From positions 3,347,384-3,411,383 of the forward strand of contig CP011806.1 of assembly GCA_001664505.1 (NCBI GenBank): 64,000 bases of DNA, given 5' to 3'. The stretch is from Acidobacteria bacterium Mor1 (GTDB taxonomy: Bacteria; Acidobacteriota; Polarisedimenticolia; Polarisedimenticolales; Polarisedimenticolaceae). Numbering within the stretch: position 1 is the stretch's first letter; the number at the start of each line of letters is the position of its first letter. The translations under genes and the position numbers were made by a program. The notes under the pieces are model-generated. The model did no database searches, was not told where the DNA came from, and saw nothing but the letters and a program-made list of their open reading frames with translations. This document shows, in pieces, positions 5,688-18,630 of the stretch.

Positions 5688-6443
5688 ATGATCCGATTCC
5701 GACTCATCGCCGCTTTTTCGATTGCTCCGCTGCTGATGTGCCTGGCCGCATCACAGGCCCAGGCGCAGATCCCGGACACGTTCGAGAACCTGCAGGTATT
5801 GCCCGAGAACATCTCCAAGCAGGAGCTGATGCAGATCATGCGCAAGTTCGCCGGGGATCTGGGTGTGCGCTGCAGCCACTGTCACGAAGGGCCGGACAAC
5901 CTCCAGGGCATGGACTTCGCCACCGACGAGAAACCGGCCAAGAAGGTCGCCCGCTCGATGATGAAGATGGTCGACGCGATCAACGACAAACATCTGGCCG
6001 GCGTCGAGACCGGGCGGGAGCTACGGGTCGAGGTCACCTGCCAGACCTGCCACAGCGGACTCAACGTACCCCGCACCATCGATGGGCTGATTGCCGACAG
6101 GCTGAAGAGCGACGGCATCGAATCCGCGAGGGCGCTCTACCGCGATTTGCGGGAGCAGCACTTCGGCAGTGCGGCCTACGACTTCTCGAGCAAGCCGCTC
6201 AACACCCTGGCCGAGAGAGTCGCGCGCGGCGGCCAGGTCGATGAGGGCCTGGCGCTGATCGACCTGAACATCGAGTTCCACCCCGAGGACGGCTACACCC
6301 GGATCCTCCAGGGAGGGATCCTGATGTCCGCAGGTAAACGGGACCAGGCGATCGCCGCCTTCGAGAAAGCGCTCGAGATCGATCCGGAGAACGGCTGGGC
6401 TCGGCAGCAGCTCGAAAGGATCCGCGGCGCAGGCGAGAAGTAG
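5688..6443 (+). CDS. Diheme c-type cytochrome, reaction-centre cytochrome subunit-like, with TPR tail
   Basis: A 251-residue periplasmic protein. The ATG at 5688 has GGGAGG at ideal spacing and starts a clean signal peptide cleaved near AQAQ (residue 27). Two heme c sites are visible: C62-x-x-C65-H66 and C118-x-x-C121-H122. Each follows the pattern helix-Met-rich-CxxCH seen in the photosynthetic reaction-centre cytochrome c subunit family (CytoC_RC, PF02276), with candidate axial Met residues in the MMKM cluster at 91-94. Many non-phototrophic Acidobacteriota carry such short diheme forms, so no photosynthesis is implied; periplasmic electron transfer is the safe reading. Residues about 185-245 form one or two TPR-like repeats (GKRDQAIAAFEKALEIDPEN). 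It is divergent from the two-component operon and may be its target. Confidence 0.85.
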   Translation: MIRFRLIAAFSIAPLLMCLAASQAQAQIPDTFENLQVLPENISKQELMQIMRKFAGDLGVRCSHCHEGPDNLQGMDFATDEKPAKKVARSMMKMVDAINDKHLAGVETGRELRVEVTCQTCHSGLNVPRTIDGLIADRLKSDGIESARALYRDLREQHFGSAAYDFSSKPLNTLAERVARGGQVDEGLALIDLNIEFHPEDGYTRILQGGILMSAGKRDQAIAAFEKALEIDPENGWARQQLERIRGAGEK

Positions 6444-6511: not shown

Positions 6512-7114
6512 CTAGAAGCCGATAGTCAGGGCGACGCCGAAGGTGTCCAGGTCGCCCTCACCGGTCTCACCCACCTCACCCACGTCGAAATAGCGCCGGC
6601 CCTCGAAACGCAGGCCGAAGCGACCGGCTAAATCGACGGTCGCGCCAACCCCGATCAGCGGCGAGGTGCCGCTCGCTTCGCTGAACTCGGGGACACCGCC
6701 GAAGATCTCGTTCTCCTCGACATCGAAACGCGCGGCGCCAATCCGCGCCAGGAAGGCGACCTTCCCCTCGGAGTCGTGCTCGTAGAGGGCGCTGGCCTCC
6801 CACGCGGTCGCCTCGATGTTGCCCACGTCCGATACCGGCGAACCGTTGAACAGGAAGGTCCCGTCGAAGTCGGTCTCCCCCAGATCGGCGTAGCCCCCCT
6901 CCACGCCCCAGCTCTCGCTGAACTTGTAGACAAAGCCGACCTGGAATCCATTGCCGTCGTCGGAGGAGTTGCCGCTGAACTGCCCCCCCTTGAAGTCCTG
7001 GGCGGTGGCGGTCACACCTACGACAACTTGACACATCTCCTCCCCGGCGGTTGCCCCGGAAAACACAAAAATCATCAGCGCCAGCCATCCGGCAGCGCGC
7101 GTGAGTCCGTTCAT
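6512..7114 (-). CDS. Outer-membrane beta-barrel protein (OmpW/OmpX-size porin-like)
   Basis: A 200-residue protein. The ATG at 7114 is preferred (GGGAGAG upstream) over the in-frame extension to 7186. It begins with a signal peptide (MNGLTRAAGWLALMIFVFSG, cleaved near ATA-GEE). The mature part alternates polar and hydrophobic residues in about eight strands (VGFVYKFSESWGVEGGYADL, GLRFEGRRYFDVG) and ends with phenylalanine in ALTIGF, the terminal signature read by the BAM machinery. It looks like a small 8-strand outer-membrane barrel; any transported substrate is unknown. It is transcribed divergently from the ECF sigma operon, 159 bases apart, which makes it a candidate regulon member or a source of the unfolded-barrel signal. 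Confidence 0.8.
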   Translation of the reverse strand: MNGLTRAAGWLALMIFVFSGATAGEEMCQVVVGVTATAQDFKGGQFSGNSSDDGNGFQVGFVYKFSESWGVEGGYADLGETDFDGTFLFNGSPVSDVGNIEATAWEASALYEHDSEGKVAFLARIGAARFDVEENEIFGGVPEFSEASGTSPLIGVGATVDLAGRFGLRFEGRRYFDVGEVGETGEGDLDTFGVALTIGF

Positions 7115-7273: not shown

Positions 7274-7801
7274 ATGGACGGGGCATCGCCCATCGAAACC
7301 AGCGTGTCCGAGGCGGATCTCGAGGCCTTGATCGAGCGGTATTCGCGCCTGATGGCTGCGGCGGTCCGGCGCGTGGTCTCCCAGCCGGAGCTACTCCCCG
7401 ACATCCGGCAGGAGATCCATCTGGCTCTGCTGAAGCGATTGCGAACAGGCCGAGACATCCGCCATCCCTCGTCGTACGTGTATAAGGTCGCGCTGACGAC
7501 GGCGCGGACGGTGGTCCAGCGCTACGCTTCGCAGGAGCAGAACGTCGACACCGACGTGCTGGACACAACGCCGCTCCCCGGTGGGGAGGACCGGATGAAA
7601 CCGGTGGAGCGGAGGATACTGGTGAAAGAGGTGCTGAACATGCTGCCCAAGGAGCAAGCGGTCGCGCTGCGCTGTTACCTCGGCGGGCTCAACCACGCGG
7701 AGGTCGCCCGGTTCTGCGGCTGGACCGAATCGGTGGCACGGCACCGGATCTACCGCGCGCTCGAGACCCTGCGTGAACGAGCAGAAGGAGCAAAGCGATG
7801 A
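7274..7801 (+). CDS. ECF-family RNA polymerase sigma factor
   Basis: A 175-residue sigma factor with region 2 at about 15-80 (DLEALIERYSRLM, LLPDIRQEIHLALLKRL) and region 4 at about 115-170 (LPKEQAVALRCYLGGLNHAEVARFCG, then WTESVARHRIYRALETL as the recognition helix). An AAGGGGAAAT site precedes the ATG. Its stop overlaps the start of the next gene as ATGA, and that gene encodes a single-pass membrane protein, the usual sigma/anti-sigma layout. A run of T-poor, weak promoter sequence upstream (CATAAT at 7248) gives no clear ECF-type autoregulatory promoter. It presumably transcribes its own operon and perhaps the divergent barrel gene. Confidence 0.88.
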   Translation: MDGASPIETSVSEADLEALIERYSRLMAAAVRRVVSQPELLPDIRQEIHLALLKRLRTGRDIRHPSSYVYKVALTTARTVVQRYASQEQNVDTDVLDTTPLPGGEDRMKPVERRILVKEVLNMLPKEQAVALRCYLGGLNHAEVARFCGWTESVARHRIYRALETLRERAEGAKR

Positions 7802-8445
7802 ACGAAGCGGAACTGCGCTCCTTCCGGCAGGGCTATCGCGAGCTCCTCGCAGACGGTCCCGCCACCGAAGTGAGTGACGAAGAGATCGCCTCGCTGATCA
7901 CCGACGACCTTCCGGAAGACGCGCGAGAGGCCTTGATGGCGAAGGTGCTTGCGGCACCCGACGGACTCGAGCGCTACCGGGAACTCCAGGAGCTCCACGA
8001 CGCCGCCCATGCGGAATCGTCCGCCGCGGCGACAGCGCGGCGTCGCGGACCTCTGCTGGCGCTGGCGGCCATGCTGATCTTCGGCTTGCTCGCGGCCGGA
8101 TGGTTCATGAACCGGGAAACGACCGGAACCGCGCCGGTTCTCCGCTCGGTCGAAGATGCATCGATCTCGACTCCCCTTGCCGCTGACGCCGGGCTCCCCC
8201 GCTCCGCCTTCGTCTTGCGCTGGATTCTCAACGGTGCAGCGGGCGAGGACGTTCGATTCGAACTGCGTATCTCTGACGACGATGCGCCGCTTTCGACCAT
8301 CGAAGATCTTTCCGAGCCGCGCTACGACGCTTCGAGCATCGTGGCCGATTTGCCCGACGGCACGCCGATCTACTTCAAGGTGACCGCCCGTCTGGCCGAC
8401 GGACGAACCGTCGACTCCGAGACCTTCATCGTCCGGATCAAGTAG
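7798..8445 (+). CDS. Single-pass membrane anti-sigma factor, zinc-less, with periplasmic Fn3-like domain
   Basis: A 215-residue protein with a cytosolic N-terminus (1-84), one TM helix (about 85-104) and a periplasmic C-terminus. The N-terminal part (SDEEIASLITDDLPEDAREAL, then APDGLERYRELQELHDAAH) has the helical layout of an anti-sigma domain but none of the H-x3-C-x2-C zinc ligands. The periplasmic part (about 130-215) has the beta-sandwich rhythm of an Fn3-like domain (FVLRWILNGAAGEDVRFELR, GTPIYFKVTARLADG). Position directly after the sigma gene with a 4-base overlap is the main evidence. Inference: it holds the sigma factor at the membrane and is released by proteolysis, possibly by the CHAT protein encoded 3 bases downstream. 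Confidence 0.72.
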   Translation: MNEAELRSFRQGYRELLADGPATEVSDEEIASLITDDLPEDAREALMAKVLAAPDGLERYRELQELHDAAHAESSAAATARRRGPLLALAAMLIFGLLAAGWFMNRETTGTAPVLRSVEDASISTPLAADAGLPRSAFVLRWILNGAAGEDVRFELRISDDDAPLSTIEDLSEPRYDASSIVADLPDGTPIYFKVTARLADGRTVDSETFIVRIK

Positions 8446-8448
8446 GCC

Positions 8449-11400
8449 TTGGGGCGCCGCGCCATCCTGGTGGTCCTGATCGCAACGCTAGTCCTGGCGG
8501 GTGCGGTCTCGGCCACATGGTCCGCGACCTTCACCGTCGATTCGGTCACCGACGGTGCAGCCGCAGCGCGAGCGGGCATCCAGCCGGGCGACCGGATCGT
8601 CAGCCTCGACGGCCGCAACCGCTGGACCAGCGCCGACTGGCTGTACGTCGAGGACGAGGCCGCCTTCGTCCGCCCCGTCGACTACATCCTCGAACGAGAC
8701 GGCGAGACGTTCCAGGTGTCGCTGCCGATCGGACCCCATGGCTGGGAGGTGTCCACCGACGGGGAGGACGAATCGTGCTTCGCGTGGCATCGGAACATGA
8801 AGGAGATCCTGGCGTCGGGAGGCACCGAGGGTTTGCTGGCAGGAGCGACCGAGGAAGTCGACGGGGTCGATCGCTATCCGTGGAATGCCCTGGCGGCACG
8901 ATTCGAGGCGGAGGCCCACGCGGCCTCGGCCCGGCCGGCCGACGCCCGAGCGGCTTTCCAGCGTGCGCTGGAAATCGCCGAGCCGGTCGAGCCTCTGCGA
9001 GCCGCCTCGATTCTGGCCCGGTGGGCGAGCTTCGAGGTCGTCCAGGCAAACGTCATGCAGGCGCGGAACCTGGCCCTGCGCGCCTCGGATCTGCGCCGGG
9101 CGGCTGCGCCGGACTCCCTACTGGCCGTCCGCAGCGAGGGAGAACTCGCCGAGATCGCCTGGTGGAGCGGTGACGTTGCCGGACATCGCGAACGAGCGAG
9201 CAAGGCGGTCGCCTGGGCCGAACAGGTAGGGCCGGAGACACTCGAGCATGCACGGGCCCTGGTGCGCCTCGGGATCAGCGATTGGGCCTACGGCGACATC
9301 GTCTCGTCAGTGACCCACCTCGAACGTGCCGTCGCCATCGCCGAACAACAGGCTCCCGGATCGACAGTCCACGCCCACGCCCTGAACAACCTGGCGCGCC
9401 CTGTGGTGATCATGGGTGATCTGCTGCGGGCGAGGGAACTCACGCGCCAGGCGCTGGCCATTCGCGAAAAGGTCGTACGAGGCTCCCTGGACCACGCATG
9501 GAGCCACAACAACCTGGGGAACTTCGAACTCTGGATGGGGAACTACCGCGCATCCAGAGAGCACTATCTGGAAGCCTGGAAGATTCGCCGACGCCGCGCC
9601 CCCGGAACCCCTTCGGAAGCCTATTCGATGATGAACCTGGCGGACCTGACCGTGCAGCTCGGCGATTTGCAGGGCGGCCGCGAATACATCGAACGGGGGC
9701 TTGACATCATCACCGGCGTGCTTCCGGGAACTCCGGACGAGGCGCTCTGCCTTCGCACCCTGGGTGAGATCGATCTCTACCAGGGCAAGCACACCCCGGC
9801 GATCGAACGGCTGGAGCGGGCACTCTCGATTCAGTCTTCGCTTGTCGACGCCAACGGCGAACTCATCTTCATTCACCTCTCGCTGGGCCGCGCGTTCCTG
9901 GAGTCGGGGGAACTGGACGAGGCGCTGCAGCACCTCCGCCGTGCCGAGGCGATGCACGACCCCGCCCGCGGCCTCGGAATCACCGAGACCCTCGGGATCA
10001 GCCGGATGCAACAGGCGGAGATCGCCCGGCGACGGGGGAACCTGGAACGCGCCCGAGAACTGAACCTCGCCGCCCTCGAGATCTATGAGAACTGGGAGGG
10101 CGCCCTGGTCCGCGCGGAAGTCCTGCACCAGCTGGGGCACCTGGCCACGGCAGAGAACGAATCGGCGGAGGCGCTGGAGTACTTCCGTGCTGCCGTCGAC
10201 GAGATCACCGCCGCCGACCGGCGAATCGGAGGGCAGTGGGCTCGGATGTACGCCTCGCGCAAGAGCGCGGAGATCCATCACAGCCTGATCGGCGCGCTGA
10301 TCGAACGGGAGCGGGCCGCCGAGGCCCTGGTTGCCCTCGAAGGCTCCCGGGCGCGGGGCATGATGGCCTACCTCGCCGACCGCAGCATCGATTGGCGCAC
10401 GATCGTCGGAGACTCGATGGACGCGCTGGATACCCTCCGCGCCCGCCGACGGGTCATCTCCGAACAGATGATGCGCTCTCATGAGGGCACCGACCGGAAC
10501 ACGATCCAGGCGTGGCGCGCCGAGCTGGCGACCCTTCATGCCGAAGAGGACGCCATCGCCGATCGCATCAAGGGTGCCCGGCCGGAGATCGCCGCGGTCC
10601 GCTACCCGACACCACTCGGGAGTGAGGAGATCGCCGCGGCAATCCCGGAGGGAACCCTGCTCCTGGCGTTCTCGGTAGGCCGTCAATCGACACACGTTCT
10701 GGGTGCCGCGCCCGGCCCGGAGGGTGGACTCGCCGTCGAGGCGCATACCCTCCCGGGCGGCCACGATGACCTGATTCACCGTGTGGAAATCCTGCGCGGA
10801 TTGATCACACCGACCTACGCTCAGCAGAACTCCGACGCCTGGTTCCAGGGCAGCCGCAAGCTCTCCCAACAGCTCCTCGGCCCGTTGGCCGGACCGATCC
10901 GGGAGGCTCGAAGGCTGGTCTTCATGCTCGACGGCCCGCTCAACCTGCTGCCCCTGTCTCTGTTCCTCGACGATGCCGGCGAACCGCTGGTCGCCGCCCG
11001 GCCGGTCCACAGCGTGCCGTCGATCGAAACCTACCGGCGGATGAAATCGGAACGGGGGGAATCCCCCGATTTGCGCTGGGTCGGCGTCGGAGCGCCGGAG
11101 CTCGATCCGGCCGGCCGGGTCGACGAAGAAGCGTTGGCTCCGAACTCCCGCTTCCGCACTCGAGGCCGGCGGCTGCTTCCCCTTCCCGGAGCGAAGACCG
11201 AACTCGAGGCGATTCGCAACCTCGTCGGTCGCGGCGGCACGAAGCTCTACGTCGGCAAGAGCGCGTCGGAATCCCAGGTGCGCTCCTGGGACGAGCATGC
11301 CTCCATCGTTCACTTCGCCAGTCATGGACTGGTCGACGACCGCCTCCCCCTGCAGTCCGCCCTCGTGCTCGCGGCCCGCGACGGGGCACCCCATGACGGA

Positions 11401-11865
11401 TTCCTGCAGGCCTGGGAGATCCTTGACGACGTTCGGCTTCCGGCGGATCTGGTGGTGCTCTCCGCCTGCGATACCGGTGGCGGAGAGATCGTGACCGGCG
11501 AGGGCCTGCTGGGGCTCAGCCAATCGTTCCTGCTCGGAGGTGCCCGGAGCGTATTGGTCAGCCTGTGGCCGATCTCCGATGAGTCCGCTCCGGAGCTGAT
11601 GAAGCAGTTCTACCGCCGGCTGATCGAGGGGTTGCCCAAGGATGAGGCTCTGCGCCAGGCCCAGCTCGAACTGCGGAGATCCGGCCGCTATGCCCACCCC
11701 TACCACTGGGCTGGGTACCGGCTGATCGGTGACGAGCGTGGCGTGCCAGCGGTGGAGGGCAGGGGTAGCGGTTTCCTCGATCGGGGATGGATCTCGGCGG
11801 GGCTCGGCCTCGGGGCTCTGCTGCTCGTGATCGCGATCTTCCACCTGTTGCGCCGAAATCGATGA
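8449..11865 (+). CDS. Membrane-anchored PDZ-TPR-CHAT protein (putative periplasmic protease)
   Basis: A 1138-residue protein starting with TTG three bases after the anti-sigma stop, so coupled to it. Order: N-terminal signal anchor (about 4-22, basic GRR before it), PDZ-like domain (about 25-85, AAARAGIQPGDRIVSLDG), long TPR array (about 140-620), linker, CHAT peptidase domain (about 800-1090), C-terminal TM (about 1112-1132) followed by RRNR. The CHAT dyad is intact: H959 in HFASHGLVDD and C1007 in VVLSACDTGGGEI, the caspase/separase-like pair. Positive-inside charges at both ends predict that PDZ, TPR and CHAT all face the periplasm. PDZ plus protease, anchored beside a membrane anti-sigma factor, recalls DegS, which uses an unrelated trypsin-like fold. 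The protease role and target are inferred. Confidence 0.82.
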   Translation: MGRRAILVVLIATLVLAGAVSATWSATFTVDSVTDGAAAARAGIQPGDRIVSLDGRNRWTSADWLYVEDEAAFVRPVDYILERDGETFQVSLPIGPHGWEVSTDGEDESCFAWHRNMKEILASGGTEGLLAGATEEVDGVDRYPWNALAARFEAEAHAASARPADARAAFQRALEIAEPVEPLRAASILARWASFEVVQANVMQARNLALRASDLRRAAAPDSLLAVRSEGELAEIAWWSGDVAGHRERASKAVAWAEQVGPETLEHARALVRLGISDWAYGDIVSSVTHLERAVAIAEQQAPGSTVHAHALNNLARPVVIMGDLLRARELTRQALAIREKVVRGSLDHAWSHNNLGNFELWMGNYRASREHYLEAWKIRRRRAPGTPSEAYSMMNLADLTVQLGDLQGGREYIERGLDIITGVLPGTPDEALCLRTLGEIDLYQGKHTPAIERLERALSIQSSLVDANGELIFIHLSLGRAFLESGELDEALQHLRRAEAMHDPARGLGITETLGISRMQQAEIARRRGNLERARELNLAALEIYENWEGALVRAEVLHQLGHLATAENESAEALEYFRAAVDEITAADRRIGGQWARMYASRKSAEIHHSLIGALIERERAAEALVALEGSRARGMMAYLADRSIDWRTIVGDSMDALDTLRARRRVISEQMMRSHEGTDRNTIQAWRAELATLHAEEDAIADRIKGARPEIAAVRYPTPLGSEEIAAAIPEGTLLLAFSVGRQSTHVLGAAPGPEGGLAVEAHTLPGGHDDLIHRVEILRGLITPTYAQQNSDAWFQGSRKLSQQLLGPLAGPIREARRLVFMLDGPLNLLPLSLFLDDAGEPLVAARPVHSVPSIETYRRMKSERGESPDLRWVGVGAPELDPAGRVDEEALAPNSRFRTRGRRLLPLPGAKTELEAIRNLVGRGGTKLYVGKSASESQVRSWDEHASIVHFASHGLVDDRLPLQSALVLAARDGAPHDGFLQAWEILDDVRLPADLVVLSACDTGGGEIVTGEGLLGLSQSFLLGGARSVLVSLWPISDESAPELMKQFYRRLIEGLPKDEALRQAQLELRRSGRYAHPYHWAGYRLIGDERGVPAVEGRGSGFLDRGWISAGLGLGALLLVIAIFHLLRRNR

Positions 11866-11983
11866 CCTCGGGGAAAAAATCCCGCGACAGGGTGAGGAAG
11901 CGACCGGGGATTCGGCGTCTCGACCCCAGGGGGGGATCCGTGAGAGCCATGAGCCATCATCTTCGCGAGCGCCGAAAGTGCCG

Positions 11984-14770
11984 ATGCGCCGCCTGATCGC
12001 AGCCCTGCTGCTTGCCGCGGCTGCCGGGGCGCCGGCCCGGGCCGACGTCTCGCTGGCCGACATCTCCCTGGCCGAGGTACGGGGCTACGACGACTGCGAC
12101 ACCCTGGCCACCCGCCATCCGGACTCCTACGAGGCCCATCGTTGCTACTGGATGCTCTCCCGGAGGGGCGCCGGCTTCGAAGAGGCGGAGCGGCGGCTTC
12201 GCAACCGGCTGGCGGTGGACCCCGGCAACACCCTGGCTCGCTTCATGCTGGGCAAGGTGGTGCAGGACTCGGGTGAGCGGGAGCGGGCCGAGCCGATTCT
12301 CCGCGAGGCGGTCACACGGTTTCGTGACGAGAGTTACTCCCGGGGCGAGGTGCACGCCCGGCTCTCCCTCAGTTCGATGTTGGCCATGCTCGGCCGTCCC
12401 GAGGAGTCCGTCACCGAACTGGACGCTGCAGGAGAGGTCGCAGATCGCTCCGGTGACAGGGAACTGGTCCAGGCGGTGGTCAGCGAACGGGCCTGGAACG
12501 CTTACCGCAAACATGACTACGGCCACGCCTACGCCTTCTTCCACGACCTGCATTCGATGCTCGACGAGAACAGCCCCAGCTACCTGCGGGGAGAGGCGCT
12601 CTCGGGACTCGGGGCATCGAGCTGGGGGATGCAACGCTTCGCCGACTCGCTGCGCTACTACCGCGAAGAAGCAGCCCTTCGCCGCCGGGTCGGCGATCGC
12701 CATGCCGAGGCACTGGCCCGGGGCAACGTGCTGTTGCTGCTGGCCAACGTGCAGGACATCGAACTCGAGGAGCGGCTGCAGTATCTGAAGGAGTCCCTCG
12801 ACGCCGCGCGGCGCTCCGAAAACCGCCGCGCCGAGTCGACGGTCCTGCGGCTGTGGGCCCTGGCCGATCCGGCGGATCCCCGGGGAGTCGAGCGATTGGA
12901 GCGGGCTGCGTCGATCTCCCGGGACCTGGCCGACGTCACCAGCCTGTGCAACGTCCTTCCCGAGCTGGCGAAACGGGTGATCGACGACGATCCCGAACGC
13001 GCCTTCACCCTGGTCGACGAGGCTATCGAGGTCGCCCGGGCCGCGGCCAACGATTTCGGCCTGGCCCATGCCTCGGTGACCAAGGGACACCTGCGCTGGC
13101 GAACCGGTCCCCGGGATGCGGCCATTCACGATTCCCTCGCTTCCCTCGACGCCATCGAACGCATGCGGGACCGGCAGTCGGACAGCTCCGCCCGGGCGAT
13201 TCACTTCCAGCGCTGGTACGGCGCGTACTACGAGATCGCAGCCCGGCTGCTGCGCCCCGAGGGACGCCAGGCGACCGCGGAAGAACAGGAGCTGGCGTTT
13301 CAGATCGTCGAACGGATGCGCACGCGGCAGCTCATCGAACGTCTGGACCGCGCCGAGGGACACCGCGTGCCTGACGCCCCCGAGGCGGTACTCTCCGAGC
13401 GGGAGGACATCCTCGAGCAGATCTCCGAGGTGCAGAACCGCCTGATGCGCGGGCTGCGCGGCGCCGAGAGAAGCGAAGCGCTATCGGCTCTCGAGGAGCT
13501 GGAACATCGCGAGAACGTGCTGCGGGCCGAGATCGCCCGGGCGGATCCGCAGTTCGGCGCCTTGCGCCGGCCATCCCTCCCGACCCTCGATCAGCTGAGA
13601 TCCTCCATCGGCGAGGACCAGGCGCTGCTCTCTTTCCAGCTGGCCAACGGCGTTCCGGTGTCCCTTCTGGTCGTCCACACCTCACGGGAGACCCGCAGCT
13701 ACCCGGTGCCCACCATCGCCGCGCTGAACTCCGCCGTGCGCCTCTACCGGGGATTGCTCGAACGACGGGACGGGAGCGCCGGCGAATCCGGTGCGAGCCT
13801 TTTCTCAACGCTGCTGGAGCAACCCCTGGCCGACCTGCCGGATTCGGTGCACCGCCTGGTCATCGTCCCGGACGGTCCGCTGCAACAGCTCCCCTTCGAC
13901 ACGCTGACCCTCGACGGATTCGAGGACAAACTGGTCAGCCGCTACGACCTGTCGCTGACGCCCTCGATCTCCGCATGGCTGCGCTTCCGCGAGAAGAGCC
14001 CCGCCGACTCCGCCCGCTCGATCCTGGCACTCGCCGACCCGGTGCACCCCGCGCATCAGGGGAACGAGGCCGGAGGCACGCGAGAGTCCACCTTCGGCGT
14101 GCAGCTCGGCCCGCTCCCCTTCGCTCGCAAGGAGGCAACCGGTGTGGTCGAACGCCTGGGACGAGGCGGTCTGGCCGAAACCGGTGAAGACGCAACCGAG
14201 GCGTTGATCAAGAGCGCCGACCTGCGTGAGTTCCGGGTGCTCCATTTCGCGGCTCACGCCCTGCTCGATGAGGACAAGCCGGAGCGCACCTCGATCCTGC
14301 TCGCCCCCGGAGACGGGAGCGATGACGGCTTGCTGCAGTTCAGGGAGATCGTCAACCTGGACCTGGACGGCCAGGTCGTGGTGCTGTCGGCCTGCCGCAG
14401 CGCGACTGGGAAGGAGATCCGCGGGGAAGGGGTGATGGGGCTGGCCCACGCCTTCTTCCAGGCAGGCGCCCGGGCGGTCATCGGCGGCCTGTGGCCCCTG
14501 CGAGATGACGAGGCCGAACGGCTGATGGGGCAGGTCTACCGGGAGCTCGACCGGGGGGCCAGCCTGAGCGAGGCCATGGCGCGAACCCGCCGGGCCGAGG
14601 CACGGCGGGGCATCCCTGCCGCGGCCTGGGCCGGCCTGGTGGTGATGGGAGACGGCGACTACGCCCCCTTCAGGGACAGTCCCTCCACCAACAAGGTCTG
14701 GATTCCGATCGTAGCGGCCGGCGCGTTCGGACTGCTGATGGTCTGGGTCGCCCGCCGGCGTCAGGCCTGA
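11984..14770 (+). CDS. Second TPR-CHAT protein, secreted and C-terminally anchored
   Basis: A 928-residue protein. The ATG at 11984 begins a clean signal peptide (MRRLIAALLLAAAAGAPARA); a GTG two codons upstream is possible. The mature protein has TPR repeats (about 30-480), a charged coiled-coil-like stretch (SEREDILEQISEVQNRL region) and a C-terminal CHAT domain with the dyad H758 (LHFAAHALLDE) and C804 (VVLSACRSATGKEIRG). A final hydrophobic helix (WIPIVAAGAFGLLMVWVA) followed by RRRQA predicts a periplasmic body with a membrane tail. It follows the PDZ-CHAT gene on the same strand with a 118-base gap, and the two CHAT proteins share architecture without the PDZ, suggesting duplication and division of labour. 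It could act downstream in a proteolytic cascade or bind other clients. Confidence 0.82.
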   Translation: MRRLIAALLLAAAAGAPARADVSLADISLAEVRGYDDCDTLATRHPDSYEAHRCYWMLSRRGAGFEEAERRLRNRLAVDPGNTLARFMLGKVVQDSGERERAEPILREAVTRFRDESYSRGEVHARLSLSSMLAMLGRPEESVTELDAAGEVADRSGDRELVQAVVSERAWNAYRKHDYGHAYAFFHDLHSMLDENSPSYLRGEALSGLGASSWGMQRFADSLRYYREEAALRRRVGDRHAEALARGNVLLLLANVQDIELEERLQYLKESLDAARRSENRRAESTVLRLWALADPADPRGVERLERAASISRDLADVTSLCNVLPELAKRVIDDDPERAFTLVDEAIEVARAAANDFGLAHASVTKGHLRWRTGPRDAAIHDSLASLDAIERMRDRQSDSSARAIHFQRWYGAYYEIAARLLRPEGRQATAEEQELAFQIVERMRTRQLIERLDRAEGHRVPDAPEAVLSEREDILEQISEVQNRLMRGLRGAERSEALSALEELEHRENVLRAEIARADPQFGALRRPSLPTLDQLRSSIGEDQALLSFQLANGVPVSLLVVHTSRETRSYPVPTIAALNSAVRLYRGLLERRDGSAGESGASLFSTLLEQPLADLPDSVHRLVIVPDGPLQQLPFDTLTLDGFEDKLVSRYDLSLTPSISAWLRFREKSPADSARSILALADPVHPAHQGNEAGGTRESTFGVQLGPLPFARKEATGVVERLGRGGLAETGEDATEALIKSADLREFRVLHFAAHALLDEDKPERTSILLAPGDGSDDGLLQFREIVNLDLDGQVVVLSACRSATGKEIRGEGVMGLAHAFFQAGARAVIGGLWPLRDDEAERLMGQVYRELDRGASLSEAMARTRRAEARRGIPAAAWAGLVVMGDGDYAPFRDSPSTNKVWIPIVAAGAFGLLMVWVARRRQA

Positions 14771-14870: not shown

Positions 14871-14928
14871 GACTTCGAGCAACGCGCCTCCACGGCCTGC
14901 TACTGTCTGAACCGGTGGGACAGTGGAG

Positions 14929-16791
14929 ATGGCCGTGAAACACCTGGAAGGCTCGCCCAAGGCCTGGGTTTCCCTGATCGATCGATTGCCGGCGATGGTC
15001 GCCTACGTAGACCGCAACCGCCGCTTCCGCTTCGTCAACGACGCCTACGCCCGGGCACACGCGAGTTCGCCATCGCTCCTGACCGGCGTGCCCGTAGCCG
15101 AGGTAAGCGCCTCGCTCTATCGCGGCATCGCCCATCACATCGACGCGGTGCTGCAGGGCCAGCCGCAGAACTTCGAGTTCCCCTACCTGGCGCCCAACGG
15201 CAAGCGAAGATGGCTACAGGCCGGCTACTACCCGGACCGGGACCAGGAGGGCAATATCCTCGGATTCTTCGCGTTCCTCCAGGACATGCACTCCCGGCGG
15301 GACTCGAGCACCCTTCACGAACAGCTGCGCTTCGCCTGCGACCAGGGGAACGAGGGTTTCGCGCTCCACGACGAGAACGGCCTGTTCAGCTACGTGAACC
15401 CGGCCCAGGCCAACATGTACGGCTACAAGACCACCGAACTTCTCGGCGAATCCTGGACCCGGCTCTACGAACCGGACGAGGTTCAACGCATCGAGCAGGA
15501 GCACTTCCCCGCCCTGATGCGAGACGGCCACTGGCGCGGCGAACTGCGCGGCCGCCGCAAGAGCGGAGAGCCCTTCGATGTCGAGGTCTCGCTGACGTTG
15601 CTCGTCGATGACGACGATCAGCCTTCAGGCCTGGTCTGCAACTGCACCGACATCACCGACCGCAAGCTGGCCGAAGCGTCGATGCACCAGCTGCAGAAGA
15701 TGGACGCCCTGGGGAAACTCACCGGAGGCATCGCCCACGACTTCAACAACATGCTGGCGGTGATCGTCGGGAACCTGAACCTGATCAAGCTGTCGATCGG
15801 CGAGGAGAGCCCGGTGGCCAAGCATCTGGACCGGGCGCTCGGAGCGGCCGAGGGCGGCGCCAAGCTGACCCGGCGGCTGCTGGCCTTCGCCCGCAAGCAA
15901 CCGCTGGCGCCGGACGTCGTCAACGTTCGCGAACTGGTGCTGGGAATGCGGGAGTTGATCGAGCGCTCACTGGGTGAACGCATTCGCGTCGAGGTGGATT
16001 GCGCCGATGACCTTTGGCCCTGCCACGTCGACGGCTCCCAGCTCGAGAACGCGATCCTCAACCTGGCGATCAACGCCCGGGACGCCCTTCCCGACGGAGG
16101 ATGCGTCTGCATCGAGCTGAGGAACGTGTTCGAGCACGAGCGGGTCCCGGCAGGGCTGCCGCCACAGAACGTCTCGATCGTGGTGCGCGACAACGGCACC
16201 GGGATGCCCGAGGATGTGCTGCAGCGGGTCTTCGATCCCTTTTTCACCACCAAGACTGCCGACCAGGGCACCGGCCTCGGCCTCAGCATGGTCCATGGCT
16301 TCGTCACCCAGTCCGAAGGACGGATCGAGGTCGATTCCGAACTGGGCCGGGGAACGACCGTCCGCATCTTGCTGCCGAGGTACCTCGGCGCGGGCGCCGA
16401 GACGAGCGCATCTCCCGAGAAGGCCGACTCGGTTCCGGGCAACAGCGAAACGGTGCTGCTGGTCGAGGACCGGCAGGATGTGCTCGAAGCGACGGCGGCG
16501 ATGCTCGAATCGCTGAACTACCGGGTGTACACCGCGACCGATGTCGAAACCGCGAAGGAACAGCTCAACGCCGCGCCGATAGACCTGCTGCTGTCCGACG
16601 TGATCCTGCCGGGGGAGAGCAGCGGTCCCGAGTTGGTGCGCTTCGTCGGCGAGGAGTATCCGGACCTTCCGGTCCTGCTGATGTCCGGGTATGCCGATGT
16701 CGACATCCGCACCCTCGGGTTGGAAGTGATCTCGAAGCCGTTCTCCCTGGAGCAACTGGCACGGGCCATTCGCACCAACCTCGAACGCTAG
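14929..16791 (+). CDS. Soluble hybrid sensor histidine kinase: PAS-PAS-HisKA-HATPase-REC
   Basis: A 620-residue protein with no TM helix. The ATG at 14929 is favoured by GGTGGGA 8 bases upstream over the GTG at 14923. Domains: PAS1 (about 15-120, LPAMVAYVDRNRRFRFVNDAY), PAS2 (about 125-245, GFALHDENGLFSYVNPAQANMYGY, closing CTDITDRKLAE), dimerisation domain with H270 (GGIAHDFNNMLAV), ATPase domain (NLAINARDALPDGG, DNGTGMPEDV, GTGLGLSMVHGF) and a C-terminal receiver with D557 (LLLSDVILPGESSG). The GG-x-AH-D-FNN H-box is the type common in soluble PAS kinases with fused receivers. No DNA-binding partner is encoded next to it, so output probably passes to a phosphotransfer protein or unlinked regulator. 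Confidence 0.92.
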   Translation: MAVKHLEGSPKAWVSLIDRLPAMVAYVDRNRRFRFVNDAYARAHASSPSLLTGVPVAEVSASLYRGIAHHIDAVLQGQPQNFEFPYLAPNGKRRWLQAGYYPDRDQEGNILGFFAFLQDMHSRRDSSTLHEQLRFACDQGNEGFALHDENGLFSYVNPAQANMYGYKTTELLGESWTRLYEPDEVQRIEQEHFPALMRDGHWRGELRGRRKSGEPFDVEVSLTLLVDDDDQPSGLVCNCTDITDRKLAEASMHQLQKMDALGKLTGGIAHDFNNMLAVIVGNLNLIKLSIGEESPVAKHLDRALGAAEGGAKLTRRLLAFARKQPLAPDVVNVRELVLGMRELIERSLGERIRVEVDCADDLWPCHVDGSQLENAILNLAINARDALPDGGCVCIELRNVFEHERVPAGLPPQNVSIVVRDNGTGMPEDVLQRVFDPFFTTKTADQGTGLGLSMVHGFVTQSEGRIEVDSELGRGTTVRILLPRYLGAGAETSASPEKADSVPGNSETVLLVEDRQDVLEATAAMLESLNYRVYTATDVETAKEQLNAAPIDLLLSDVILPGESSGPELVRFVGEEYPDLPVLLMSGYADVDIRTLGLEVISKPFSLEQLARAIRTNLER

Positions 16792-16890
16792 TTCGCGTTC
16801 CCTGCCTCCTCGGCCTCGGCTCGGTTGTAACGAGAGTGTTTCGGTCGGAACCGGCGGCGCTTTCTCTGACGCCGAACCCTGAGGCTGCCT

Positions 16891-16896
16891 TACAAT
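16891..16896 (+). promoter_or_regulatory. -10 hexamer TACAAT, 6 bases before the kinase ATG
   Basis: TACAAT matches TATAAT at 5 of 6 positions and is followed by TGCGGC and the ATG at 16903. Transcription would start at the A of the start codon; no Shine-Dalgarno sequence is present, so a leaderless mRNA is likely. The -35 region (TGACGC) is poor. Confidence 0.5.
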
Positions 16897-16902
16897 TGCG
16901 GC

Positions 16903-18630
16903 ATGACCCAGCTGGCCCAGCGGCTGCCTACCGGCGTGCGGATTCCCTGGTGGATCTGGCTCGGCGGCGCACTACTCGCCATCTGGCCTCTGGCCGGCCA
17001 GCTTCCGACCCTCGATTCCCATGCAGCCTGGATGCTTGCCTTCACCCTGCGCCTGCTCATCGAGGGAGCTGCGCACCTGTGGGCCGCAGCGCGGGCCGAG
17101 CTCCCGGCGCGCCTGCGGCTCGCCCTCAAGATCACCGGCGCCACTTCGTTGATCTCGGCGGGGACCGGCGTCCTCGACGTGATCCAGGCCGTGGGCGGTC
17201 CGGCACTCCTCAGCGAAACCCTGAGTTGGAGTTGGCTGCTCGGCTCCTATCTGATGGGAACCGTGGCGCTGCTCGTCTTCCCCTGGCGCCCCTCCCACGC
17301 AACCCAACATCGGCTGACGCTGCCCCTCGACGTGCTGATCACCAGCGGCGGGTTCATCGCGCTTCAGTGGATACTCGTCACCGCACCTGCCGCCGCCCAG
17401 GACGCCACCGAGGGAGCGGCCAACGTGCCGTTGATCTACGGCCTGGCCCAGGCGATCTACCTGGTCGGTCTGAACGTGCTTGTCCTGCGCGGACGGGCGG
17501 TCCCCAGCCGGCGAGCGTTCTGGTGGTTCGTGATCGGACAGGCGCTCTACATTCCGGTCACCCTGTTCATCCAGCTGGAGCTCCCTCTGGGGGCGGACGA
17601 GTGGCTGGGAGATCTCGCTTACTTCGCCGGAGTCATCCCCACCTTGATGGCCATGGTCTGGATGCGCCACGACGCAATCACCGACGACGCCGAACCCGGC
17701 CCCTCCTGGCTGCGGGACTTCAGCCCGCTGCCGGCGCTGGTCGGCCTCTTCCTCGGGATCGCGTTGATCACGGCGCTGCTTCGGGACCAGCACGGCATGG
17801 CCCTGCAACTGGCCATCGCCCTTGCGGTCATCGCCGTACTCGCGGCCGTCCGCTCACTGCTCTCGAGCCGGCAGAACGCGCTGCTGCTGAGGGTCGAGGC
17901 GGAGCGGGAGCGCCTCTACCAGCGGGAACGCAAGCAGCTGGTCGAGCGGCTGGCCGGCGGCGTGGCCCACGAACTCAACAACGCCCTGGTGCCGATCATC
18001 GGCAACGCCGAGTTGGCGCTGAGCTCCCACGGAACGGCCAACCCGCGCAAGAGCCTGGAAGAGATCCGCTTCGCCGGAGAGCGGGCCGCCCGCCTCACGC
18101 AGCAGCTGTTGCGTTTCAGCGGACGCCAGCTCGATCACAAGGAGTCGATGGACCTCGGTGAGGCGGTGCTGGCGCTTCGCTGTTCCCTCGAAGGATCGCT
18201 TCATCGGGACGTATCGCTGGAACTCGACGCGGAGACGCCGCTACCCGTACGCGCGGACCGCAACCAGGTCGCACGAATGGTCGAAGAACTCGTGGAGAAT
18301 GCGGTTCGCGCCATGCCCGCAGGGGGACGGATCCGGATTCGCGCGGCACTCGATCGACTGGAGCGGCCTTCCGACGGACCGGGACTTCCGGTTCCCCCGG
18401 GGGACTACGCGACGATCACCGTGGAAGATGATGGGCGCGGCATCGAAGCCGGCGAGCTGGAGCGCATCTTCCAGCCGTTCTACTCCGGGGGTTCCACGGG
18501 CCGCGCGGGCATGGGCCTCGCCGCCATTCAAGGGACCATGGGCGCCCACGGAGGGGGTGTCGCCCTGAAGTCCCGCCGGGGCGCCGGCACCACCGCGGCG
18601 CTCTACTTTCCCCTGCGCCAGCGGGACTGA
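16903..18630 (+). CDS. Polytopic membrane histidine kinase
   Basis: A 575-residue protein. The N-terminal half (about 15-325) has about eight hydrophobic helices and no known sensor domain. After a short basic coiled coil (RVEAERERLYQRERKQLVERL) comes the phosphoacceptor H356 in GGVAHELNNALVPIIGNAELAL, then the ATPase domain with the N box (ELVENAVRAMPAGG), DDGRGIEAGELERIFQPFY and a G2 box reduced to GMGLAAIQG. Its H-box resembles that of the upstream hybrid kinase. The two genes are 111 bases apart, and this one has its own -10-like TACAAT. No receiver or regulator is linked. A polytopic membrane sensor could respond to membrane state or a lipophilic signal; this is inference. Confidence 0.88.
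   Translation: MTQLAQRLPTGVRIPWWIWLGGALLAIWPLAGQLPTLDSHAAWMLAFTLRLLIEGAAHLWAAARAELPARLRLALKITGATSLISAGTGVLDVIQAVGGPALLSETLSWSWLLGSYLMGTVALLVFPWRPSHATQHRLTLPLDVLITSGGFIALQWILVTAPAAAQDATEGAANVPLIYGLAQAIYLVGLNVLVLRGRAVPSRRAFWWFVIGQALYIPVTLFIQLELPLGADEWLGDLAYFAGVIPTLMAMVWMRHDAITDDAEPGPSWLRDFSPLPALVGLFLGIALITALLRDQHGMALQLAIALAVIAVLAAVRSLLSSRQNALLLRVEAERERLYQRERKQLVERLAGGVAHELNNALVPIIGNAELALSSHGTANPRKSLEEIRFAGERAARLTQQLLRFSGRQLDHKESMDLGEAVLALRCSLEGSLHRDVSLELDAETPLPVRADRNQVARMVEELVENAVRAMPAGGRIRIRAALDRLERPSDGPGLPVPPGDYATITVEDDGRGIEAGELERIFQPFYSGGSTGRAGMGLAAIQGTMGAHGGGVALKSRRGAGTTAALYFPLRQRD

Follow-up and report, generated by a model that had tools for sequence, protein, structure and literature searches.

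An ECF sigma factor operon of Acidobacteria bacterium Mor1 with a membrane anti-sigma factor and two predicted exported TPR-CHAT proteases

Gene products of the operon

The window analysed here is a 64,000-nucleotide stretch of Acidobacteria bacterium Mor1 DNA (positions 3347384-3411383 of the 5.985-Mb single-contig genome), and the subject of this study is a group of four genes at its positions 7274-14770, all of them on the + strand. Gene calls and Pfam searches confirmed that, as an earlier note on this DNA had proposed, they form an operon encoding an extracytoplasmic function (ECF) sigma factor, an anti-sigma factor, a PDZ-TPR-CHAT protein and a second TPR-CHAT protein. The Pfam matches of the window proteins were sigma-70 region 2 (8e-7) and region 4_2 (1.5e-8), PDZ_6 (3e-7), TPR and CHAT (5e-68 and 2e-59), while PADLOC returned just a TPR model and a weak match to BovA. 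The 4-base overlap of the sigma and anti-sigma genes (7274-7801/7798-8445), as well as the TTG start of the third gene and the 3-base gap in front of it (8445/8449), were found as described.

Identification of the second gene product as an anti-sigma factor was borne out by a profile of 25 relatives (A4), which matches the anti-sigma domains of DdvA from Myxococcus xanthus (8rot, 2.9e-6; 8rlz, 0.002) and of RslA (3hug_B, 2.6e-5). Its AlphaFold2 (AF2) model, with a predicted local distance difference test score (pLDDT) of 85.9, contains helices at residues 3-18, 27-34, 40-52 and 56-82, a transmembrane (TM) helix at 87-104, a linker (105-117) that is disordered (pLDDT <50) and, after it, a confident beta-sandwich. 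Based on the profile matches and the four N-terminal helices the protein is a predicted class I anti-sigma factor with an N-terminal anti-sigma domain (ASD). The beta-sandwich (residues 119-215) resembles Fn3 domains (VIA Z 9-10, root-mean-square deviation (rmsd) 2.4-3 for 84-94 residues), and the topology with one hydrophobic segment (86-104) supports the proposed periplasmic position of this part. There is no Cys in the sequence, as expected of a zinc-less protein; the zinc motif is kept by several sibling anti-sigma copies of the same genome (L056, L062).

Both CHAT domains score far above the Pfam cut-off (230 and 202 bits versus 24), and the catalytic pairs pointed out earlier are in place: H959 and C1007 in the PDZ-TPR-CHAT protein, H758 and C804 in the second one if counted from the ATG at 11984. 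Both products therefore belong to the TPR-CHAT family and are predicted proteases. Among ECF-linked CHATs the His is kept in 133/136 and the Cys in 135/136. NCBIfam model NF041237 (Csx29 of type III-E CRISPR) gave 14.7 and 17.1 bits with a cut-off of 300, and Trypsin_2 had no match in the PDZ-TPR-CHAT protein. In the AF2 model of the latter a TPR superhelix is followed by a caspase-like fold, which matches separase, Csx29/TPR-CHAT and DdvA; judging from the models, separases are the nearest eukaryotic relatives of CHAT by fold. DdvA was found among the matches of the PDZ-CHAT protein by Foldseek and VIA (8rot, 8rw5; VIA Z 22.2, rmsd 5.1, 625 residues), its CHAT domain is the best match in the PDB by profile (2.1e-10), and it retains the His and the Cys.

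The PDZ-CHAT protein has two hydrophobic segments, 5-23 and 1115-1133. From the TM helices suggested for both its ends the C-terminal one stands, but the N-terminal segment may be a cleaved signal peptide instead of an anchor. In the second CHAT protein the N-terminus resembles a signal peptide and the C-terminal TM segment ends in Arg residues, and those relatives of PDZ-CHAT that have a complete N-terminus carry signal peptides or lipoboxes. Topology and export signals of the relatives support the predicted periplasmic location of CHAT.

Association of CHAT genes with ECF sigma factors

In the Mor1 genome we registered 21 CHAT genes and 71 matches to sigma region 2; so many parallel switches are unusual for 6 Mb. 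For twelve of the 21 CHATs a region-2 match is found no more than 6 kb away, with 2.8 expected (position test, P ~5e-5), and a chance neighbourhood of CHAT and sigma genes was thereby ruled out. The order of ECF, one-TM protein and TPR-CHAT is present at loci L055, L056, L060 and L062, and other layouts were found at L052, L053, L057-L059, L061, L063 and L067-L069. Many CHAT proteins of this genome have lipoprotein-type signals, while in the type of L055, L056, L060 and L062 a signal at the N-terminus is combined with a C-terminal TM segment and Arg after it. The second CHAT of the window aligns over its full length with the CHATs of these four loci and of L054. By sequence it is the type usually placed after ECF and anti-sigma genes in this genome, so that PDZ-CHAT looks like an additional gene in the operon. 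Several ECF-CHAT loci of the genome (L057, L062, L067 and others) adjoin genes of large secreted proteins with YLVT...CP-like tails, which are possible sigma targets or CHAT substrates.

CHATs of other genomes were sampled without selection for sigma factors, except for one batch picked by likeness to one cytosolic CHAT. A scan of genome contigs gave 80 CHAT loci, and in the united survey an ECF gene was found within 3.5 kb of 136/219 distinct CHATs: upstream on the same strand in 79 cases, convergent in 26, downstream on the same strand in 16 and divergent in 15. Such survival of the association through rearrangements of gene order argues for a working link. The combination of ECF, one-TM anti-sigma factor and TPR-CHAT is also found in Myxococcus, Pyxidicoccus, Corallococcus, Acidobacteriota, Gemmatimonadota and others, and seems to be a widespread signalling module that has been little studied. 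At loci L083, L085-L088, L090, L091, L096 and L124 of the three myxobacterial genera a gene of ~145-185 aa stands between the anti-sigma factor and TPR-CHAT.

PDZ-TPR-CHAT genes were found beside ECF/anti-sigma genes, in several orders, in Acidobacteriota, Lysobacterales and a 'Deltaproteobacteria' metagenome-assembled genome (MAG). A Lysobacterales MAG (L113) has ECF, zinc-less anti-sigma factor and PDZ-CHAT in the order of the window; at a contig start of Woeseiaceae (L072) a one-TM protein with an Fn3-like tail precedes PDZ-CHAT, and in the 'Deltaproteobacteria' MAG (L073) PDZ-CHAT is convergent with the ECF/anti-sigma pair. In 396 genomes sampled from the phylum there were many more such loci, and 15 of the 26 PDZ-CHAT loci tabulated have an ECF gene within 3.5 kb, three of these 15 coming from one genus. 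PDZ-CHAT is not present in close relatives of the same class. Comparison of gene neighbourhoods, including the same gene order in L113, thus agrees with the conserved ECF/anti-sigma/CHAT arrangement that had been anticipated.

TM anti-sigma factors pair with exported CHATs and soluble partners with cytosolic ones (strict automatic table 72/12/1/16, Fisher 2.8e-10). The 13 discordant loci came from automatic signal-peptide calls and are explained by signal peptides at other starts or by wrongly assigned partners: on inspection 11 of them proved to have a signal-like N-terminus if a different start is taken, and two (L132, L286) were excluded, so that after curation the agreement was 99/99. This match of compartments is consistent with an interaction between anti-sigma factor and CHAT. 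At the cytosolic loci L215, L223, L147 and L141 the ECF gene is accompanied by a soluble beta-sandwich protein with an invariant Arg, a cytosolic CHAT and then an exported protein, subtilase-like by sequence at L215 and L223. Judging from its sequences, this set looks like ECF54, where CHAT genes also accompany the ECF factor, with a previously unnamed anti-sigma-like partner; the ECF54 review names no anti-sigma factor (PMC8999054). The window differs from this context in its membrane-bound anti-sigma factor and the export signal of CHAT, and there is no subtilase among the neighbours scanned.

A conserved arginine in the anti-sigma linker

The most conserved position of the anti-sigma family is Arg116 (24/25 sequences of A4), which is followed by a small or polar residue and was conserved in 76/85 relatives by profile alignment. 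A motif phi-R-[GSANEQ] was present within 25 residues of the TM segment in 46/85 relatives and in 0/20 control proteins, the latter being one-TM proteins from the neighbourhood of 40 CHAT-free ECF genes in the same genome. The motif scan alone is weak, since by a rough estimate about half of the linkers are expected to show the motif within 55 residues; the proposed role of Arg116 rests on its column in the profile, the control over 25 residues and the disorder in the model. An invariant Arg also precedes the beta-sandwich of the soluble partners of cytosolic CHATs (13/13). Separases cut after Arg, and in human separase Asp2070 binds the P1 Arg (PMC10317155). We infer from the sequences and the model that CHAT cuts the anti-sigma factor near this linker.

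Coordinates and neighbouring genes

Table 1. Features of the operon in window coordinates
Feature	Position	Strand	Evidence
ECF sigma factor, 175 aa, regions 2 and 4	7274..7801	+	PF04542 8e-7, PF08281 1.5e-8, NCBIfam sigma70-ECF over cut-off
Zinc-less one-TM anti-sigma factor, 215 aa	7798..8445	+	Profile A4, AF2 model, Fn3 matches
Anti-sigma TM segment, residues 86-104	8053..8109	+	Hydropathy peak 2.32; AF2 helix 87-104
Arg116 codon in juxtamembrane periplasmic linker, proposed cleavage/recognition point	8143..8145	+	24/25 in A4; 76/85 relatives
PDZ-TPR-CHAT protein, 1138 aa, predicted exported, C-terminal TM 1115-1133	8449..11865	+	Pfam; AF2 pLDDT 81.2, predicted template modelling score (pTM) 0.74; fold matches
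PDZ domain, residues 26-104, apparently lacking the N-terminal loop strand typical of HtrA	8524..8760	+	PF17820 2.5e-8 on fragment; profile A5
CHAT caspase-like protease domain (predicted), residues 802-1095	10852..11733	+	PF12770 4.6e-68
PDZ-CHAT catalytic codons H959; C1007	11323-11325; 11467-11469	+	Residues kept across ECF-linked CHATs
Second TPR-CHAT protein, 928 aa, signal peptide and C-terminal TM	11984..14770 (alternative start 11978)	+	PF12770 1.7e-59

Divergently from the operon lies a small outer-membrane beta-barrel gene (6512-7114, - strand; OMP_b-brl 7e-10), the product of which ends with TIGF, an ordinary ending of outer-membrane proteins (OMPs). The ~160 bases between them are a possible shared control region. 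Further upstream there is a gene (5688-6443, + strand) for a c-type cytochrome that carries a TPR tail and belongs to the non-photosynthetic PufC-like family (NF033196 over cut-off). On the 3' side two sensor kinase genes, PAS-PAS-kinase-receiver and then a membrane kinase, occupy positions 14923-18630 (+ strand) and are possibly unrelated to the operon.

Proposed mechanism and alternative explanations

Sequences and models provide the domain identities, export signals, gene association and conservation of the catalytic dyad and the linker Arg. Together with the analogies discussed below they suggest a membrane signalling module in which CHAT cuts the anti-sigma linker and the sigma factor is released, and we consider the prospects of this whole chain to be about even. 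At rest the helical cytoplasmic region of the one-TM anti-sigma factor would bind the ECF sigma factor, while PDZ-TPR-CHAT and/or the second TPR-CHAT protein would reside on the periplasmic side of the inner membrane. A signal received through the PDZ and TPR parts would activate CHAT, which may then cut the flexible linker in the periplasm once, at Arg116 or close to it. By the general scheme of regulated intramembrane proteolysis the shortened anti-sigma factor would be passed to an RseP-type site-2 protease, one of which is encoded in the genome, and to cytoplasmic proteases, setting the sigma factor free.

Several observations weigh against this scheme. No ECF gene is found near 83 of the 219 CHATs; each compartment trait changes only twice on the CHAT tree, so that the paired loci are not statistically independent; and the controls for the linker Arg mostly have no Fn3 domain, which confounds Arg with domain type. 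Besides, the Asp that binds the P1 Arg in separase is not conserved at the aligned CHAT position (hand-counted residues), and the Arg specificity of CHAT therefore cannot be read from the sequence. Asp1044, which is invariant in CHATs, was considered as the counterpart of this Asp and dropped, since it aligns four residues before it (hand-counted alignment).

CHATs might instead bind the Fn3 domain without cutting the anti-sigma factor, serving as a sensor or co-anti-sigma factor, with the protease acting on something else. Such a role fits the position of TPR-CHAT within the anti-sigma chain of DdvA itself, and activity of DdvS depends on inactivation of DdvA, its signal being reported as unknown (PMC4374960). 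But almost exceptionless conservation of the dyad in ECF-linked CHATs and a near-invariant Arg in a disordered linker would not be expected from pure binding, and we regard this explanation as unlikely. CHAT genes may also be outputs of the sigma factor, that is exported proteases made when it is active. ECF factors often drive their own operon, and several ECF-CHAT loci of this genome adjoin genes of large secreted proteins; however, neither the fusion of anti-sigma domain and TPR-CHAT in DdvA, nor the matched compartments, nor the linker Arg is predicted by this idea, which makes it rather improbable. Reversed regulation, where the Fn3 domain of the anti-sigma factor restrains the CHAT protease, is suggested by the separase-like fold of CHAT, since the separase inhibitor securin acts as a pseudosubstrate (PMC10317155); the parallel with securin, however, predicts a residue other than Arg at P1, while the conserved residue here is Arg, and we find little room for it.

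The earlier note placed the PDZ-CHAT protein in the position of DegS and assumed that its PDZ domain senses C-termini of OMPs. The PDZ call as such is sound, since a profile of 16 such domains (A5) matches the PDZ domains of DegP, RseP and DegS (best 2e-15), with only 8/16 of them passing Pfam PDZ_6 alone. In the full-length AF2 model its strands occupy residues 27-33, 49-53, 77-83, 86-92 and 99-104. The domain begins right after the export signal, DegP PDZ1 is matched only from residue 283 and the PDZ domain of RseP aligns as well. From such a start the strand and loop by which HtrA proteins bind C-termini appear to be missing, as at the beginning of RseP PDZ constructs; their place might be taken by strand 99-104 and a motif LPxGxW of this family (around residues 94-101). 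Sensing of OMP C-termini is consequently not supported, the TIGF end of the neighbouring barrel being an ordinary one, and "replacement of DegS" proved too specific a term, since the genome has 14 Trypsin_2 domains in addition to its RseP-type protease and most ECF-linked CHATs have no PDZ. A true DegS equivalent, with PDZ sensing exposed C-termini of misfolded outer-membrane barrels, is thus very improbable: it is favoured by the PDZ matches and by the divergently adjoining barrel gene, but the binding strand and loop appear to be absent and no barrel neighbour was seen beside other PDZ-CHAT genes inspected.

Relation to known systems

With the RpoE/RseA/DegS/RseP pathway of E. coli (PMC8103513) the proposed cleavage module shares a membrane anti-sigma factor, a predicted periplasmic PDZ-bearing protease and an RseP homologue in the genome. 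Here, however, there is a caspase-like CHAT instead of the trypsin-like serine protease domain that defines the DegS/HtrA family, PDZ is N-terminal, apparently without the HtrA-type loop, and a TPR array is present, so that by sequence the analogy with DegS is only partly right.

The DdvS/DdvA system of M. xanthus is similar in that an ECF factor is held by a transmembrane anti-sigma factor with TPR-CHAT beyond the membrane, and its anti-sigma and CHAT domains resemble those of the window. DdvA combines anti-sigma domain and TPR-CHAT in a single chain, while in the window they are encoded by separate genes, the anti-sigma factor bears Fn3, and there are two CHATs, one of them with PDZ. Judging from sequences and models, DdvA is a natural fusion of parts that are neighbours in the window.

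In DiCASP (Cas7-11/Csx29/Csx30/CASP-sigma) the TPR-CHAT protease Csx29 cleaves Csx30, an inhibitor of an ECF sigma factor (PMC10028731), which provides a biochemical precedent, in a cytosolic system, for the cut predicted here. DiCASP, however, is triggered by CRISPR target RNA and its components have no export features, whereas those of the window are predicted to be exported or membrane-bound; the cut in Csx30 falls in a C-terminal loop and requires no particular sequence. In CalpL/CalpT/CalpS of type III CRISPR (PMC11229360) a sigma factor is likewise set free when a protease cuts the anti-sigma factor that holds it, but there the enzyme is a Lon-type SAVED protease activated by cyclic tetra-adenylate (cA4).

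Exported TPR-CHATs may in general constitute a widespread, undescribed class of site-1 proteases, separase-like enzymes that in many lineages cut membrane anti-sigma factors after a conserved linker Arg and have swappable N-terminal sensors, PDZ in this case. This generalization is tentative, and we would rather doubt than assert it. If it is true, caspase/separase-like proteases would govern signalling at the envelope in Acidobacteriota, Myxococcota, Gemmatimonadota and Pseudomonadota, and a dozen parallel CHAT-sigma switches could coexist in a single genome. DiCASP would then fall inside a broader non-CRISPR signalling family, there would be a cut site that is simple and open to testing, and a possible activation route would be offered for DdvA, the signal of which was reported as unknown (PMC4374960).

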